Assembly (NCBI GenBank): GCA_030765145.1
Contig: JAVCDA010000037.1
Span: forward strand, 1-55,198
Source of the DNA: Candidatus Saelkia tenebricola
GTDB lineage: Bacteria; Omnitrophota; Gorgyraeia; Kaelpiales; Kaelpiaceae
Direction of reading: 5' to 3'
Length of the DNA: 55,198 bases
Shown here in pieces: positions 6,925 to 55,198 of this stretch (the first letter of the stretch is position 1; every line of letters begins with the position of its first letter). The notes under the pieces were generated by a model, which ran no database searches, had not been told where the DNA came from, and saw only the letters and a program-made list of their open reading frames with translations. Position numbers and translations under genes: made by a program.

Positions 6925-7023
6925 CTATTCACCTTCCTCAAAAAACATACGCAGATAAAATGCTTTCTCATCAAGATCATACAGCTCATCCATAGTAAAC
7001 CCATACTTATTTGCTACCTCCAT
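6925..7023 (-). CDS. Possible 32-aa small protein upstream of the barrel protein
   Basis: An ATG at 7023 opens a 32-codon frame ending in TAG immediately before the ATG of the next gene, so the two would be tightly coupled. The peptide is acidic and amphipathic (MEVANKYGFTMDELYDLDEK followed by AFYLRMFFEEGE). The frame stays open upstream of the ATG for about 17 codons without a good start, and no Shine-Dalgarno sequence precedes the ATG. It could therefore be a remnant of a longer gene. No family is recognised. Confidence 0.3.
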   Translation of the reverse strand: MEVANKYGFTMDELYDLDEKAFYLRMFFEEGE

Positions 7024-7112
7024 AAGCACTCTTTTTTCATATTTTGTGTTATATTTAAATCTGAAAATATTCTATTGCAAAATAAAAAACAAGTCAATTA
7101 AAAGAAGAGATT

Positions 7113-7306
7113 CTGGCGGTGAGTGGACTCGCCCCGCTAGAACCACTGTATTGGGATGCTCCGCTAAACCACTAACAATACGGGTATGAGCCACGGCTAA
7201 AGCCAGAAAACATAGTTTTGACCTTACTGACTACTAGTACTTCCCTACTTAGACTCCATAGTATCCTTTTGGAGTTAAGTGATTAATATTTACTGTATTA
7301 TTTCAC
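7113..7306 (-). repeat. tRNA-Met-derived cassette repeat R1
   Basis: First of three direct copies of a ~193-bp element. Strand is given as that of the embedded tRNA sequence. Bases 7114-7131 equal the last 18 nt of the tRNA-Met at 10645. There follows a ~35-bp block absent from the tRNA, and then the tRNA's anticodon arm with one mismatch (ACTAACAA for ACTGACAA). The rest is shared only among the repeats, including CTACTTAG-CTCCAT, TCCTTTTGG and AAGTGATTAA near the right end. R1 is the most divergent copy and lacks the GCCCG terminator found beside R2 and R3. Confidence 0.9.
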
Positions 7307-7477
7307 AACGAAACAAAACGGGGAAATATAAAAATAAAAACCAGTAAATTGACATAATAAATTGGCATCTATTTCGTAGTTCCTCATCTGCTGGTAGTTT
7401 AATAAGTTTAGAGCTACCATATTAAAAATAACTATTGATATATAAATTCATTTTGAAATACTTCCCCGTAACTAAAT

Positions 7478-7506
7478 TAGACAAAACACCGTACATATGT
7501 TACATT
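7478..7506 (+). promoter_or_regulatory. Promoter for the exported methyltransferase-like gene
   Basis: TAGACA (7478-7483), a 17-bp spacer and TACATT (7501-7506) form a reasonable sigma70-type promoter. Transcription would begin near 7513 and leave a ~30-nt leader before the ATG at 7543. That rules against the upstream TTG at 7435 as the real start. The stretch 7307-7477 between R1 and this promoter is AT-rich. It holds a small TGGTAG/CTACCA hairpin (about 7391-7418) and nothing else that I recognise. Confidence 0.5.
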
Positions 7507-7542
7507 TATTTAGGGTGCTTACAAATCACATATGGATACTTA

Positions 7543-8559
7543 ATGAAAAGAAATTTTATCAATATTATATTTCTGGTCTTAATAACAACCATTGTGACAC
7601 CACCCCCTCTTACTTTTGCAAGAAGAACAAAAACAACCATACAAAATGTAGGTTTTAAGCCTTTAGACGCATTACACAATAATCCTACTCTTAAAGCTTT
7701 CATCGAAAATGTTCTAACCAAACGCTATACGAACTGGGGATTACCAGCGAATTTAGTGAAGTATATCTTTGCTACTCTTGAAAAATATAGAAATAATCCA
7801 GAACAAGCCAGGCAAAGAGTTTATGCAGAAACCATAGATTTTGAAACAAATACAGATTGGCAAGAAGCATATAATCGATATAAGAGTGCTACAAAATATA
7901 CTACAACATTCAGTCAGATAGAACAGGTTTTAGGAAGTCTCCCTATAGGAGCAACTGTTGTCGACGTAGGATGCGGCAACAATATTCTCGGAAAAGAAAT
8001 TGCAATAAATAATCCTAAAATTTCTATTATAGGAACTGATACCTACGATTACCATGAAGAACATGGACTTTCTAATCTTAATTTTCTTCAACAATCCTCT
8101 CCTTTTGACATACCTATAGGAGAGGAATCTGTTGATGTTATAATTTTAAATGCAACATTACACCATGTATCTCCAGAAGAAATCGGTGAATTTTTAAACG
8201 AATTATCCAGAATCTTAAAACCTGGTGGTAAAGTTATATTAGTTGAAGATACATGGTCTGAAAATATACCTTTTAAAACTGAAGAATCAGATATCGAATT
8301 AACAAATGAGTTCCTAAGTTTAGTAGAACAATATGGAGAAGATTTTGCAAAAGAATATCTCATATTTAACGATTGGTATTCAAATATAGTTGTTCATCAA
8401 TGGGATGGAATGGCAATGCCATATAATTTTCATTCAATGGAATCATGGCAAACCATATTCCAAAACCAAGGGTTTACTACATCAGAAACTCTGTTTTTTG
8501 GATTTTTAAAACAAACATTTCATAAACCTAGTGTTGGGATAATTGTATTTACAAATTAA
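7543..8559 (+). CDS. Exported SAM-dependent methyltransferase-like protein
   Basis: A 338-residue protein with a clear signal peptide: MKRN n-region, hydrophobic FINIIFLVLITTIV, and a cleavage-like TFA-R near residue 26. It then has a class I methyltransferase fold of the Methyltransf_11 type. Motif I is VVDVGCGNN at 139-147, the acidic residue after strand 2 is in IIGTD at 162-166, and the post-I region is ESVDVIILNATLHHV. LSRILKPGGKVILVED spans 221-236. The substrate is unknown. A SAM-dependent fold behind a signal sequence is odd because SAM is cytosolic, so the N-terminus may instead be an uncleaved anchor. It is one of few plus-strand genes and sits alone between repeats R1 and R2. Confidence 0.75.
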   Translation: MKRNFINIIFLVLITTIVTPPPLTFARRTKTTIQNVGFKPLDALHNNPTLKAFIENVLTKRYTNWGLPANLVKYIFATLEKYRNNPEQARQRVYAETIDFETNTDWQEAYNRYKSATKYTTTFSQIEQVLGSLPIGATVVDVGCGNNILGKEIAINNPKISIIGTDTYDYHEEHGLSNLNFLQQSSPFDIPIGEESVDVIILNATLHHVSPEEIGEFLNELSRILKPGGKVILVEDTWSENIPFKTEESDIELTNEFLSLVEQYGEDFAKEYLIFNDWYSNIVVHQWDGMAMPYNFHSMESWQTIFQNQGFTTSETLFFGFLKQTFHKPSVGIIVFTN

Positions 8560-8564
8560 AAAAA

Positions 8565-8757
8565 CTAGCGGTGAGTGGACTCGCCCCGATAGAACCACTG
8601 TATTAGGATGCTCCGCTAAACCACTGACACTACGGGCATGAGCCTGTCAAAATCATAGATTTTAACCCTACTGACTACTAATATACTTCCCTACTTAGCC
8701 TCCATCACCTCCTTTTGGGGGTAAGTGGTTAGTATTTATAGTATTATTTTACTACGG
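8565..8757 (-). repeat. tRNA-Met-derived cassette repeat R2
   Basis: Second copy of the element, close to R3 over its whole length. The inserted block lets the first ~55 bases fold as a minihelix. TAGCGG (8566-8571) pairs with CCGCTA (8613-8618), and inside it AGTGG (8574-8578) pairs with CCACT (8595-8599). R1 and R3 have TGGCGG at the outer stem, so the R2 change makes the outer stem a perfect Watson-Crick pair, a hint that the fold matters. Anticodon-arm homology (with CACTACGGGCATG variants) follows. A CACCTCCTTTT tract lies near 8707-8717. Confidence 0.92.
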
Positions 8758-8782
8758 AATGAGGCAGGAATATATAAAAAGA

Positions 8783-8812
8783 AAAGCCCGCCAAATTAAT
8801 GACGGGCTTTTT
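8783..8812 (-). terminator. Rho-independent terminator after the 206-aa exported protein gene
   Basis: AAAGCCCG (8783-8790) pairs with CGGGCTTT (8803-8810) around a 12-nt AT-rich loop. T-runs lie on both sides, so it can work in either direction. It lies 22 bp past the minus-strand gene that ends at 8834. A near-identical hairpin lies beside R3. Confidence 0.85.
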
Positions 8813-8833
8813 AATTTAGATCGCAATCAAAGA

Positions 8834-9454
8834 TTAATTGTCTTCATTAGAAGCTCTTTCGTTATAGTCATGCCATTCAAATGGCGTTCTGCTTAAATCA
8901 TTGAAAGCTCTTTCGTTATAGTCATGCCATTCAAATGGAATATTTCTTAAATCACAACTATAAATATTCAAAAGGATACCCAGAACGTAGCCATCGATTG
9001 CAAAATCTTGTATATCAGGATATTTAAACTTAATAAATTCGTCTATTCTTTTAGTAAAAGATTCAGTTTCAGCTTCAATATCCATTTCTTGTTCTGAATA
9101 TATACCTACAATAGCCCTTAGTTGTTCAGTTATATTCACAACATCTTTAGGTAATACACATGCACCACCTACCATTGAAGAAAATAAAGCCCCATCTATG
9201 ACTTCTAAAGCCTTATTTAAACTATCCATATCAACATCTTCTAATGAGTATGCAAAATCTTTAGCAACCCCTTTCTTAAAGTCAACGTATTCCATTTTTT
9301 CTAGACTGCCGACAATTGCTCGTTGATTTTCTTGTTGTACGTAATTACAAGTTATAGGCATATTTTGTTGCTTCAAAAGTACAGCAAAACTTGGTAAACT
9401 AAACATTGTTATTCCTAAAAATCCTATTGTCGTAATTACTATTAAATTCTTCAT
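8834..9454 (-). CDS. Small exported protein with duplicated C-terminal peptide
   Basis: A 206-residue protein of no recognised family. It has a signal peptide (MKN, hydrophobic LIVITTIGFLGITMF, cleavage-like SFA-V near residue 24), so it is probably periplasmic or secreted. The mature part is acidic and helix-prone with a few Cys. Its last 31 residues hold two copies of PFEWHDYNERA spaced 18 residues apart, encoded by two identical 34-bp stretches. AAAGGAG stands 8 nt before the ATG. It resembles the 182-aa protein at 9945 weakly by eye (a Y-x-QQ start after the signal peptide, and ITEQLRAIV against LIEQLGNLI), and the two leaders are similar. They may be paralogues. Confidence 0.65.
   Translation of the reverse strand: MKNLIVITTIGFLGITMFSLPSFAVLLKQQNMPITCNYVQQENQRAIVGSLEKMEYVDFKKGVAKDFAYSLEDVDMDSLNKALEVIDGALFSSMVGGACVLPKDVVNITEQLRAIVGIYSEQEMDIEAETESFTKRIDEFIKFKYPDIQDFAIDGYVLGILLNIYSCDLRNIPFEWHDYNERAFNDLSRTPFEWHDYNERASNEDN
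8851..8938 (-). repeat. Tandem 34-bp coding repeat
   Basis: Bases 8851-8884 and 8905-8938 are identical over 34 bp, with a 54-bp period equal to 18 codons. Each encodes the PFEWHDYNERA peptide at the C-terminus of the exported protein. Complete nucleotide identity points to a recent duplication. Confidence 0.95.
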
Positions 9455-9541
9455 CTTCTAATCTCCTTTTTTACCTTTCACACCTTTTATTCTCATCTTA
9501 TCTATTTCAAGCCCCCCTAAGAGCAATTTATTTCCAACATA

Positions 9542-9569
9542 ATTATACCATAAAATCAATACTTATCAA
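9542..9569 (-). promoter_or_regulatory. Promoter of the 206-aa exported protein gene
   Basis: On the minus strand TTGATA (9569-9564), a 16-bp spacer and a consensus TATAAT (9547-9542) precede the gene by about 90 bp. The leader between promoter and ATG contains a GGCTTGAAATAGAT segment that recurs, slightly changed, in the leader of the 182-aa gene. The rest of 9455-9684 is AT-rich with nothing else recognisable. Confidence 0.65.
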
Positions 9570-9684
9570 ATAACTTTTATAAATTATTTAATTTATGGTG
9601 GTAAAAACATTTTTATATTAATACAACATTTAGAATAGAGTAAAACACAGATAAAAATATAGGACTAAAAACATAGAATAAAAA

Positions 9685-9877
9685 CTGGCGGTGAGTGGAC
9701 TCGCCCCGATAGAACCACTGTATTGGGATGCTCCGCTAAACCACTGACAATACGGGTATGAGCCTGTCAAAATCATAGATTTTAACCCTACTGACTACTA
9801 CTTTACTTCCCTACTTAGCCTCCATCGCCTCCTTTTGGGGTTAAGTGGTTAGCATTTATAGTCTTATTATACTACAG
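9685..9877 (-). repeat. tRNA-Met-derived cassette repeat R3
   Basis: Third copy and the one closest to the tRNA. Bases 9686-9703 match the last 18 nt of the tRNA-Met exactly, and 9739-9764 match its anticodon arm and variable region exactly (26 bp). The 35-bp block 9704-9738 interrupts the T loop and contains a second CAGTGGTT. Homology to the tRNA ends 5 nt before the anticodon, so the 5' half is missing. The remaining ~113 bp belong only to the repeat family. Near its right end AGTGGTTAGC can pair with GCTAAACCACT at 9735-9745. Confidence 0.93.
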
Positions 9878-9900
9878 GATGGGATAGGATATAAAAAGAA

Positions 9901-9928
9901 AAGCCCGCTAAATTAATAACGGGCTTAT
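9901..9928 (-). terminator. Rho-independent terminator after the 182-aa exported protein gene
   Basis: AAGCCCG (9901-9907) pairs with CGGGCTT (9920-9926) with a T-rich flank on the minus-strand exit side. It is nearly the same hairpin as at 8783-8812 and holds the same place between the repeat and the stop codon. Confidence 0.8.
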
Positions 9929-9944
9929 TTTTGCAACTAATAAA

Positions 9945-10493
9945 CTACATCGTCATCATACCTTCTTTAATGGTATTCAAAATATCAGGATTATCTAATA
10001 TTTTTTGAAATAAGTCAGAGCTCATCGCATCAATTCGTAATGAGAAGATTACCCTTCCAACAGTCGTTGACACTTCATGATTTTGGGCTACCTCATCAAT
10101 GATTGAATATAATTGGTCTTCCTTATCTGTTAATTCTATTGTTACATCTTTTATTAAATTCCCAAGCTGTTCAATTAAACCTATCTTTTCATCAATAGTA
10201 GTATCTTCATTTTCTGCAATACTAATTAAAATATTCTCAAACATTTCCTTAGCAGGAAGAAGATACGTTGTCTTTTTTACTTTTGCTCTTCCGAGTGCAA
10301 GCATATGTTCTAGCGCATCAGGTTCTAAAGTAGCAATTGCAACTTCCTCATCTCCTTGTTGTAAATATTCAAAAGTAACTCCAATATCAATTCTATCAGG
10401 TGGAGTGCCATCAGCAATACCGCATTCTGCCATATTGTAAGAAATGAAACTTACTGCTAAAACAACTGCTCCTAATAATGCTAACTTCTTCAT
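9945..10493 (-). CDS. Small exported protein of unknown function
   Basis: A 182-residue protein with a signal peptide (MKKLALLGAVVLAVSFISYN, cleavage likely after NMA). The mature chain is acidic and mostly helical by eye, with the segment IDEKIGLIEQLGNLIKDV in the middle and a Met-rich end. No catalytic motif or family is recognised. GGAGG lies 7 nt before the ATG, fixing the start. It is monocistronic, with its own promoter and terminator. Similar position, leader and signal peptide suggest a distant paralogue of the 206-aa protein. Confidence 0.65.
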   Translation of the reverse strand: MKKLALLGAVVLAVSFISYNMAECGIADGTPPDRIDIGVTFEYLQQGDEEVAIATLEPDALEHMLALGRAKVKKTTYLLPAKEMFENILISIAENEDTTIDEKIGLIEQLGNLIKDVTIELTDKEDQLYSIIDEVAQNHEVSTTVGRVIFSLRIDAMSSDLFQKILDNPDILNTIKEGMMTM

Positions 10494-10563
10494 CTTTACA
10501 CCTCCGTTTTATTCTTTGGTTTCTTCATCTATATCAAGCCTCTCAAAATTTCCCTATGTAGTA

Positions 10564-10591
10564 TTTATCGCATACAATACTTGCTTGTCAA
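10564..10591 (-). promoter_or_regulatory. Promoter of the 182-aa exported protein gene
   Basis: On the minus strand a consensus TTGACA (10591-10586) and GATAAA (10569-10564) are separated by 16 bp, about 70 bp before the ATG. The leader that follows contains GGCTTGATATAGATGA, matching the leader of the gene at 8834-9454. Confidence 0.6.
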
Positions 10592-10644
10592 ATCACTTCC
10601 TAAGCTTTTTTAAATTGCGCGTATTTATTAGGTAGGATTAGGTT

Positions 10645-10718
10645 TGGCGGTGAGTGGACTCGAACCACTGACAATACGGGTATGAGCCGTATGCTCTAAC
10701 CAACTGAGCTACACCGCC
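10645..10718 (-). tRNA. tRNA-Met (CAT), elongator type
   Basis: A complete cloverleaf on the minus strand. The acceptor GGCGGTG pairs with CACCGCC, and the D arm is GCTCAGTTGGTTAGAGC. The anticodon stem TACGG/CCGTA carries loop CTCATAC with anticodon CAT. The T arm is AGTGG-TTCGAGT-CCACT, and the discriminator is A at 10645. A G1-C72 pair argues against initiator tRNA. The CGGCTCATACCCG arm is typical of elongator Met, though lysidine-type Ile(CAT) cannot be wholly excluded. CCA is not encoded. A TATAAT lies 14 bp before its 5' end (10737-10732). Its 3' half is copied in R1-R3. Confidence 0.95.
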
Positions 10719-54450: not shown

Positions 54451-55103
54451 ATAAATTTTTTAACCAGTTGGCAGGAATTCTGCAATATCTGCTCTATTTC
54501 CTGAATCGTTAAATCCAAACTTTCTTCCAAAATAGTCTTAATCTGAATATCGTTTAACAAATCATCCATATCATGAGCGTCGCTATTAAAAACAAGCCTG
54601 GCACCATTTCTTTTAGCTACCCCGTACACATGCCTGTTACCCTCTAAATGACCTGAGCGGGCTGTAAGTTCTAAACATACCCCTGTTTTACTTGCCATAA
54701 GAGCTACTTCATCAGTAATTTTACCGGGATGAGCTAAAATATCAGCACCAGCTTCAACAGCTACCTTATTTGTTCCTTCTATTACCGGCTCAACAGGCGA
54801 TTCTCCATGCACAACGACTAAAACCTTACCCTTTCTCCTGGCATATTTTATGAGTCTGGGAATAAGTTCCAAGGGAGCATGAGTTATCTCAACCCCCGGA
54901 ATTACTTTTATCTTTTTCCCCCAAAACCTGTTTAAATCTTTTGAGACTTTTATTAATCTCGGGAGTACAAAATCTATGTTTGAAGAATCAACATGATCGG
55001 TAAGGGCTATAACTTCATAACCGCAAACAGAAGCTCTCCTCACTAACTCAGACGGCAGTAATGATCCATCGCTAAAAATAGTATGCGTATGTAAATCTAT
55101 CAT
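54447..55103 (-). CDS. PHP-domain phosphoesterase
   Basis: A 218-residue PHP-fold protein with metal-binding HTHTIFSDG, LTDHVDSS, VVHGESP, ILAHPGKI and FNSDAHD. It resembles histidinol-phosphatase-like and YcdX-like PHP proteins; the substrate is not clear. It may act in nucleotide or DNA metabolism because it leads the YhaO-YhaN pair (ATGA overlap). The ATG at 55103 is preferred (it starts MIDLHTHT); an ATG five codons up is possible. Confidence 0.85.
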   Translation of the reverse strand: MIDLHTHTIFSDGSLLPSELVRRASVCGYEVIALTDHVDSSNIDFVLPRLIKVSKDLNRFWGKKIKVIPGVEITHAPLELIPRLIKYARRKGKVLVVVHGESPVEPVIEGTNKVAVEAGADILAHPGKITDEVALMASKTGVCLELTARSGHLEGNRHVYGVAKRNGARLVFNSDAHDMDDLLNDIQIKTILEESLDLTIQEIEQILQNSCQLVKKFI

Positions 55104-55124
55104 TTTATTTTCTCCCAATAATTA

Positions 55125-55198
55125 TGCCCCACGCAGGACTTGAACCTGCGACACCCGGTTTAGGAAACCGGTGCTCTTCCGTACTGAGCTAGCGGGGC
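55125..55198 (-). tRNA. tRNA-Arg (CCT)
   Basis: A complete minus-strand cloverleaf that reaches the last base of the window. The acceptor GCCCCGC pairs with GTGGGGC (one G-U). The D arm is GCTCAGTACGGAAGAGC, the anticodon stem CCGGT/ACCGG carries loop TTCCTAA (anticodon CCT), and the T arm is GCAGG-TTCAAGT-CCTGC. The discriminator is A. CCA is not encoded. Confidence 0.95.

Follow-up and report, generated by a model that had tools for sequence, protein, structure and literature searches.

A tRNA-Met-anchored array of mostly single-gene units, probably an additive genomic island, in Candidatus Saelkia tenebricola

Additive flexible genomic islands are arrays of cassettes at tRNA genes with direct repeats of tRNA fragments, and examples have been described in Ca. 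Actinomarinales (PMC7771536), at tRNA-Lys in Methylophilaceae (PMC10872708) and in Alteromonas (PMC4119200). In the CIME accretions of Streptococcus, att-flanked units that lack an integrase and derive from conjugative or mobilisable elements are stacked at one target gene; the targets of these composites are protein genes, and CIMEs at tRNA-Lys are cited for another species (PMC7563491). Islander tRNA islands are bounded by a tRNA and its displaced 3' fragment, are defined by an integrase and a length of at least 2 kb, and include anticodon-centred sites as one recognised class (PMC4383910). Tycheposons, as summarised second-hand in PMC10872708, measure 4-200 kb and carry a tyrosine recombinase, cargo and a tRNA at one end, with tRNA-Met among their targets. 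Here, we describe an array in a 55,198-nucleotide stretch of DNA (the window) from the 98% complete genome of Candidatus Saelkia tenebricola (G000). This array is probably an additive island anchored on the tRNA-Met 3' half, built by repeated integrase-mediated insertion of att-flanked, mostly single-gene units. The original prediction, made from the sequence alone, had proposed repeated insertion of small units at a tRNA 3' end, which is well supported by integrase islands in relatives, differing units and transfer between genera. Its statement that no such system had been described was too strong, because the general kind is already known as additive flexible genomic islands and CIME accretion (PMC7771536, PMC10872708, PMC4119200, PMC7563491).

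The locus was compared with G001 (same family, other genus), G003 (same family) and G316 (another family). By protein, the nearest named match to the window genome is a Candidatus Omnitrophota bacterium (58% identity over the B12-radical SAM protein), in keeping with placement in Omnitrophota. From the intact tRNA outward, its features in window coordinates are as follows:

10645-10718, minus strand: intact tRNA-Met(CAT), the integration target (ARAGORN; Rfam, 72 bits)
10494-10644, minus strand: leader/promoter of unit 1 (gene182), TTGACA-N16-GATAAA
9945-10493, minus strand: gene182, exported protein of unassigned family, unit 1 (open reading frame; N-terminal signal-peptide-like stretch judged by eye)
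9901-9926, minus strand: intrinsic-terminator-like hairpin after gene182
9685-9906: direct repeat R3, displaced tRNA-Met 3' half with a 35-bp T-loop insert, then a tail like the end of an HTH gene (alignment)
9455-9684, minus strand: leader/promoter of unit 2 (gene206), TTGATA-N16-TATAAT (11/12), common to the leaders of G001 gene206 and G003 gene228
8834-9454, minus strand: gene206, exported protein of unassigned family, unit 2 (DNA and amino-acid comparison with G001 L017:13385-14002)
8782-8811, minus strand: intrinsic-terminator-like hairpin after gene206
8565-8789: direct repeat R2, displaced tRNA-Met 3' half with insert and HTH-like tail (alignment)
7543-8559, plus strand: exported class I SAM methyltransferase, unit 3, in reversed orientation (Methyltransf_11, 50.8 bits)
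7113-7343: direct repeat R1, the farthest displaced tRNA-Met 3' half, of the older type, ACGGCTAA.GCCAGAAAAC (sequence comparison, alignment)
6925-7101, minus strand: remnant of a fourth small unit, with a fuller frame in G001 at about L017:14365-14640 (translations; 84% DNA identity over 98 bp)

R1, R2 and R3 are mutually alignable, and the R2 and R3 regions align without gaps over 219 nt at 91% identity. They had been predicted as three direct repeats of ~193 bp with 18 and 26 bp of tRNA-Met each; alignment recovers the repeats but gives a unit length of ~220 bp, which includes the terminator after R2 and R3. Each contains the tRNA terminal stretch GCGGTGAGTGGACTCG with flanking bases and the 26-mer AACCACTGACAATACGGGTATGAGCC, which is exact in R3, as had been claimed, and matches tRNA-Met at 25/26 positions in R1 and 24/26 in R2; in the 1.6-Mb genome, the 26-mer match alone has an E value of ~1e-6 to 5e-5. 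The source of the repeat is the 3' half of tRNA-Met, from the anticodon arm through the 3' end, and the 18 and 26 bp are a single contiguous 44-bp part of it, split at the T-loop by the 35-bp insert in R1-R3. ARAGORN detected no tRNA inside R1-R3, and the only intact tRNA of the array is the one predicted at its right end. Displaced copies of the tRNA 3' half also lie near tRNA-Met in G001, G003 and G316, and a genome-wide search of the window genome returned R1-R3 and the tRNA itself only. The target is thus a tRNA of which part is repeated at the cassette ends, as in additive flexible islands. Four CAT tRNAs are present in the window genome, one clearly an initiator, and lethal excision owing to a unique tRNA is consequently not established. 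The final 98 bases of the window (55101-55198), which contain tRNA-Arg(CCT), recur without any difference in the start region of contig C30, and an assembly overlap is therefore the most likely reason for the two tRNA-Arg matches.

The stretches holding the T-loop insert lie at 7113-7195, 8565-8647 and 9685-9767, and the insert measures 35 bp in the window and ~48 bp in G001 and G003. Read in antisense, the insert resembles a tRNA D-arm; derivation from another tRNA of the window genome was rejected, with no match found. The tail of R1-R3 resembles the end of the island HTH gene (KEAMEAK-stop and similar, versus KEEIKAK-stop in G001) and is present on the repeats of all three same-family genomes (G000, G001 and G003); a longer HTH-gene fragment, RWFNGHTKPSEIQEYYIKELLK, persists beside the G001 copy at L017:14821. 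These resemblances suggest that R1-R3 are degenerate island ends, each a displaced tRNA 3' half with a tail derived from the end of an HTH gene, and the conservation of the tail in every copy could reflect derivation from island ends or retained integrase arm sites. Alignment separates two tail types, an older one in R1 and the distal copies of G001 and G003 and a newer one in copies closer to the tRNA. The position of the older type farthest from the tRNA here agrees with CIME accretion, in which the most decayed units lie farthest from the target (PMC7563491). A conserved transcribed RNA gene (tRNA-like or a small RNA), with the intervening genes incidental, would also explain a well-conserved repeat, and the plus-strand RNA fold reaches a z of -2.1. 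However, no Rfam family other than tRNA itself comes near threshold, the minus strand folds at a z of only -0.2, insert-free copies and copies with different tails exist, and the tail looks like an HTH gene terminus, leaving this explanation with almost no probability.

Integrase islands at the same tRNA were found in two relatives. G001 has a ~9.5-kb island at tRNA-Met, with a tyrosine integrase 146 bp from the intact tRNA and, at the far end, a small HTH_3 gene followed after ~40 bp by an exact, insert-free 44-bp tRNA 3' copy. In G316, an integrase 70% identical to that of G001 lies beside tRNA-Met, and an exact 45-bp tRNA 3' copy lies 7.7 kb off. Judged from sequence, the tRNA/copy pairs of G001 and G316 look like ordinary attL/attR pairs, and, as in Islander islands, a tRNA and a displaced 3' fragment bound an integrase island (PMC4383910). 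Intact att copies lacking the insert are present by alignment in G001 and G003. A survey of 384 genomes of the class for the anticodon-arm pattern gave 70 matching genomes, with extra linked copies only in G001, G003 and G316; an apparent second tRNA-Met copy in G150 is actually one tRNA within an 88-bp contig overlap, and the extra copy in G239 is two different tRNAs on different contigs. In G003, contig C14 (L019) stops with the 45 bp of the tRNA 3' half, and contig C37 (L020) opens with an exact copy of them; as a hint only, this may point to a population in which some cells have an element inserted at the tRNA and others do not. A viral origin was rejected, as viral contigs yielded neither an exact repeat copy nor relatives of gene206 or the integrase; among the matches listed, phage integrases are at most 34% identical to the integrase.

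Pfam searches of the larger G001 island genes returned an integrase, an AbiU2 HEPN domain and an RT, several genes being without a family. No conjugation or relaxase gene was recognised among them, unlike the origin of CIMEs in conjugative or mobilisable elements. Within this island, L017:8969-10711 holds a retron-type RT-Toprim (PADLOC RT-Toprim_I-C, E 3e-158) and an AbiU2-like HEPN gene, which suggests defence cargo.

The tyrosine recombinase that the original prediction had proposed to look for was found in relatives, with the G001 and G316 integrases adjoining tRNA-Met with its displaced copy; the window genome has none at the array. Its only candidates are two Xer-like recombinases, both away from the array, and with no cognate integrase in this genome, nothing shows present-day activity. 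Family members apart from G001 have only Xer-like enzymes at 31-38% identity, G002 and G004 being incomplete and yielding no usable locus. The window units, at ~1.0-1.5 kb and without a recombinase, have neither element of the Islander definition (PMC4383910) and do not fit tycheposons as summarised in PMC10872708, to which only the G001 and G316 islands come near. Like CIMEs, the window units are flanked by att sites and carry no integrase of their own. The original prediction had also offered an integron-like cassette system; in this reading, a single recombinase would shuffle the one-gene cassettes via folded tRNA-derived attC-like sites. Units of one gene that have a repeat at one of their ends would fit, as would a methyltransferase unit cleanly gained or lost between repeats. 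Against it, the G001 integrase is of the Xer/phage type (62.6 bits with TIGR02249, cut-off 265), no integrase lies at the array in the window genome, the units appear to have their own promoters, and single-stranded DNA folds of R1-R3 and one G001 repeat are no better than shuffles (z 0.05 to -1.6). This alternative is highly improbable.

For gene182, there was no Pfam match above cut-off and none in PADLOC or NCBIfam, and the AlphaFold2 pLDDT values of gene182 (42) and gene206 (33) are too low for use. The 3' end of gene206 has a tandem 54-bp repeat (8844-8951) that encodes two copies of a PFEWHDYNERA-type motif. In other families of the class, very long ORFs (of up to 5973 codons) contain stretches 37-40% identical to the methyltransferase, which looks like a piece cut out of giant exported proteins. 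Neither the G001 nor the G003 genome has a close match to its unit (E<=1e-30), and tblastn found none at the locus.

Leaders of gene182, gene206 (window and G001) and gene228 are related (z up to 48), and the tRNA-adjacent end of the unit 1 leader is identical to the G001 gene206-unit leader at 67/81 positions (z 25.6), whereas the proteins behind these leaders show no similarity by BLASTP. Each gene had been credited with its own promoter; a TTGAYA-N16-TAtAaa pair is indeed kept in the gene206 and gene228 leaders and is weaker before gene182 (second hexamer GATAAA), but shuffled sequences contain about as many promoter-like sites as the real one (17.4 vs 18). The predicted positions of the repeats, the tRNA and the genes stand, but the methyltransferase unit is on the opposite strand and does not have the leader-gene-terminator plan. 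Unlike those of additive flexible islands, the cassettes here are mostly ~1-kb single exported-protein genes, at least two sharing a leader and terminator, and the displaced copies contain a T-loop insert. The single-gene size, the leader and terminator common to dissimilar proteins, and the T-loop insert are what is unusual in this locus.

Like additive flexible islands, the locus varies in gene content at the same place: between tRNA-Met and tilS, the window has gene182, gene206 and the methyltransferase, G001 has the island, gene206, a small gene, gene295 and a GNAT gene, and G003 has gene228 alone. Between the window and G001 (L017:13385-14002), gene206 shares 92.9% DNA and 86% amino-acid identity, and its unit is 90% identical over 999 bp, compared with 66-69% for flanking core genes. 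Identities at the three codon positions are 91/94/93%, with no third-position excess, and the noncoding flanks of gene206 are 89% identical. Its dS is 0.098, while that of core genes is 2.4 to saturated, and the units must therefore travel; on these comparisons, the gene206 unit is a recent horizontal transfer between genera. The dN/dS is 0.70 for gene206 and 0.1-0.2 for core genes with estimable dS (TilS, B12 and PilZ), which suggests that selection on the exported cargo is relaxed or diversifying.

These data also bear on whether one ancient island decayed and the array then grew by local tandem duplication and gene conversion of repeat plus gene, with fast divergence of the genes and no integrase in the spread of units. 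The 91% identity of R2 and R3 and their common T-loop insert, the leaders common to units with undetectably similar proteins, and the missing matching integrase in the window genome are all in keeping with such growth. The low intergeneric dS of gene206 beside saturated neighbours is not, nor are the different unit content of each relative, the insert-free intact att copies in G001 and G003, and a methyltransferase unit without a counterpart in either genome; we regard local growth as the sole source of the array as unlikely. Duplication or gene conversion of the repeat is nevertheless also needed, because R1-R3 share the T-loop insert and so are not each a fresh displacement of a working tRNA.

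Repeated integrase-mediated insertion is supported by the exact tRNA 3' copies bounding islands in two relatives, the variable units and the recent gene206 transfer. In the proposed mechanism, elements with an Xer-like tyrosine integrase would recombine with tRNA-Met, with the crossover most likely in the anticodon loop, since sequence identity begins at the anticodon stem. Insertion would rebuild the tRNA and displace the old 3' half to the far end of the element, and successive rounds would shift older units farther from the tRNA. In most units an integrase would be missing, through loss or from the outset, so that a single att-flanked gene remains, which in the window is gene182, gene206 or the methyltransferase; such units would be mobilised in trans, or a resident island would move them in cis. 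At their left ends, the units do not match the integrase side of the G001 island, and they are thus not simple deletion products of that island. Simple excision that restores a working tRNA is unlikely given the T-loop insert in R1-R3.

Unit gain and loss probably also occur via homologous recombination between repeats. The single G001 repeat between gene206 and the next unit is a mosaic, with one flank resembling R1 and the other R2 (36/46 informative sites; permutation p 0.0006, same breakpoint search), a pattern that gain or loss of the methyltransferase unit between two repeats would produce. The R1/R2 switch is ~60 bp away from where the crossover is presumed, and for this event homologous recombination fits better than, or at least as well as, an integrase.

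A more specific possibility, which we put forward tentatively and consider doubtful as yet, is a family of minimal trans-mobilised cassettes. Such ~1-kb units would have a fixed frame (promoter leader, exchangeable exported-protein gene, terminator and att arm), enter the tRNA via the integrases of larger islands, and then be locked in, because excision would leave the tRNA disrupted by the T-loop insert of the displaced copy. In this poorly studied, uncultivated lineage, single exported-protein genes move between genera into one tRNA locus, and one clearly recent transfer is documented (dS 0.10 vs saturation). If the leader-terminator-att frame is a real mobile unit, ordinary tRNA integration would have produced an integron-like outcome with no integron.
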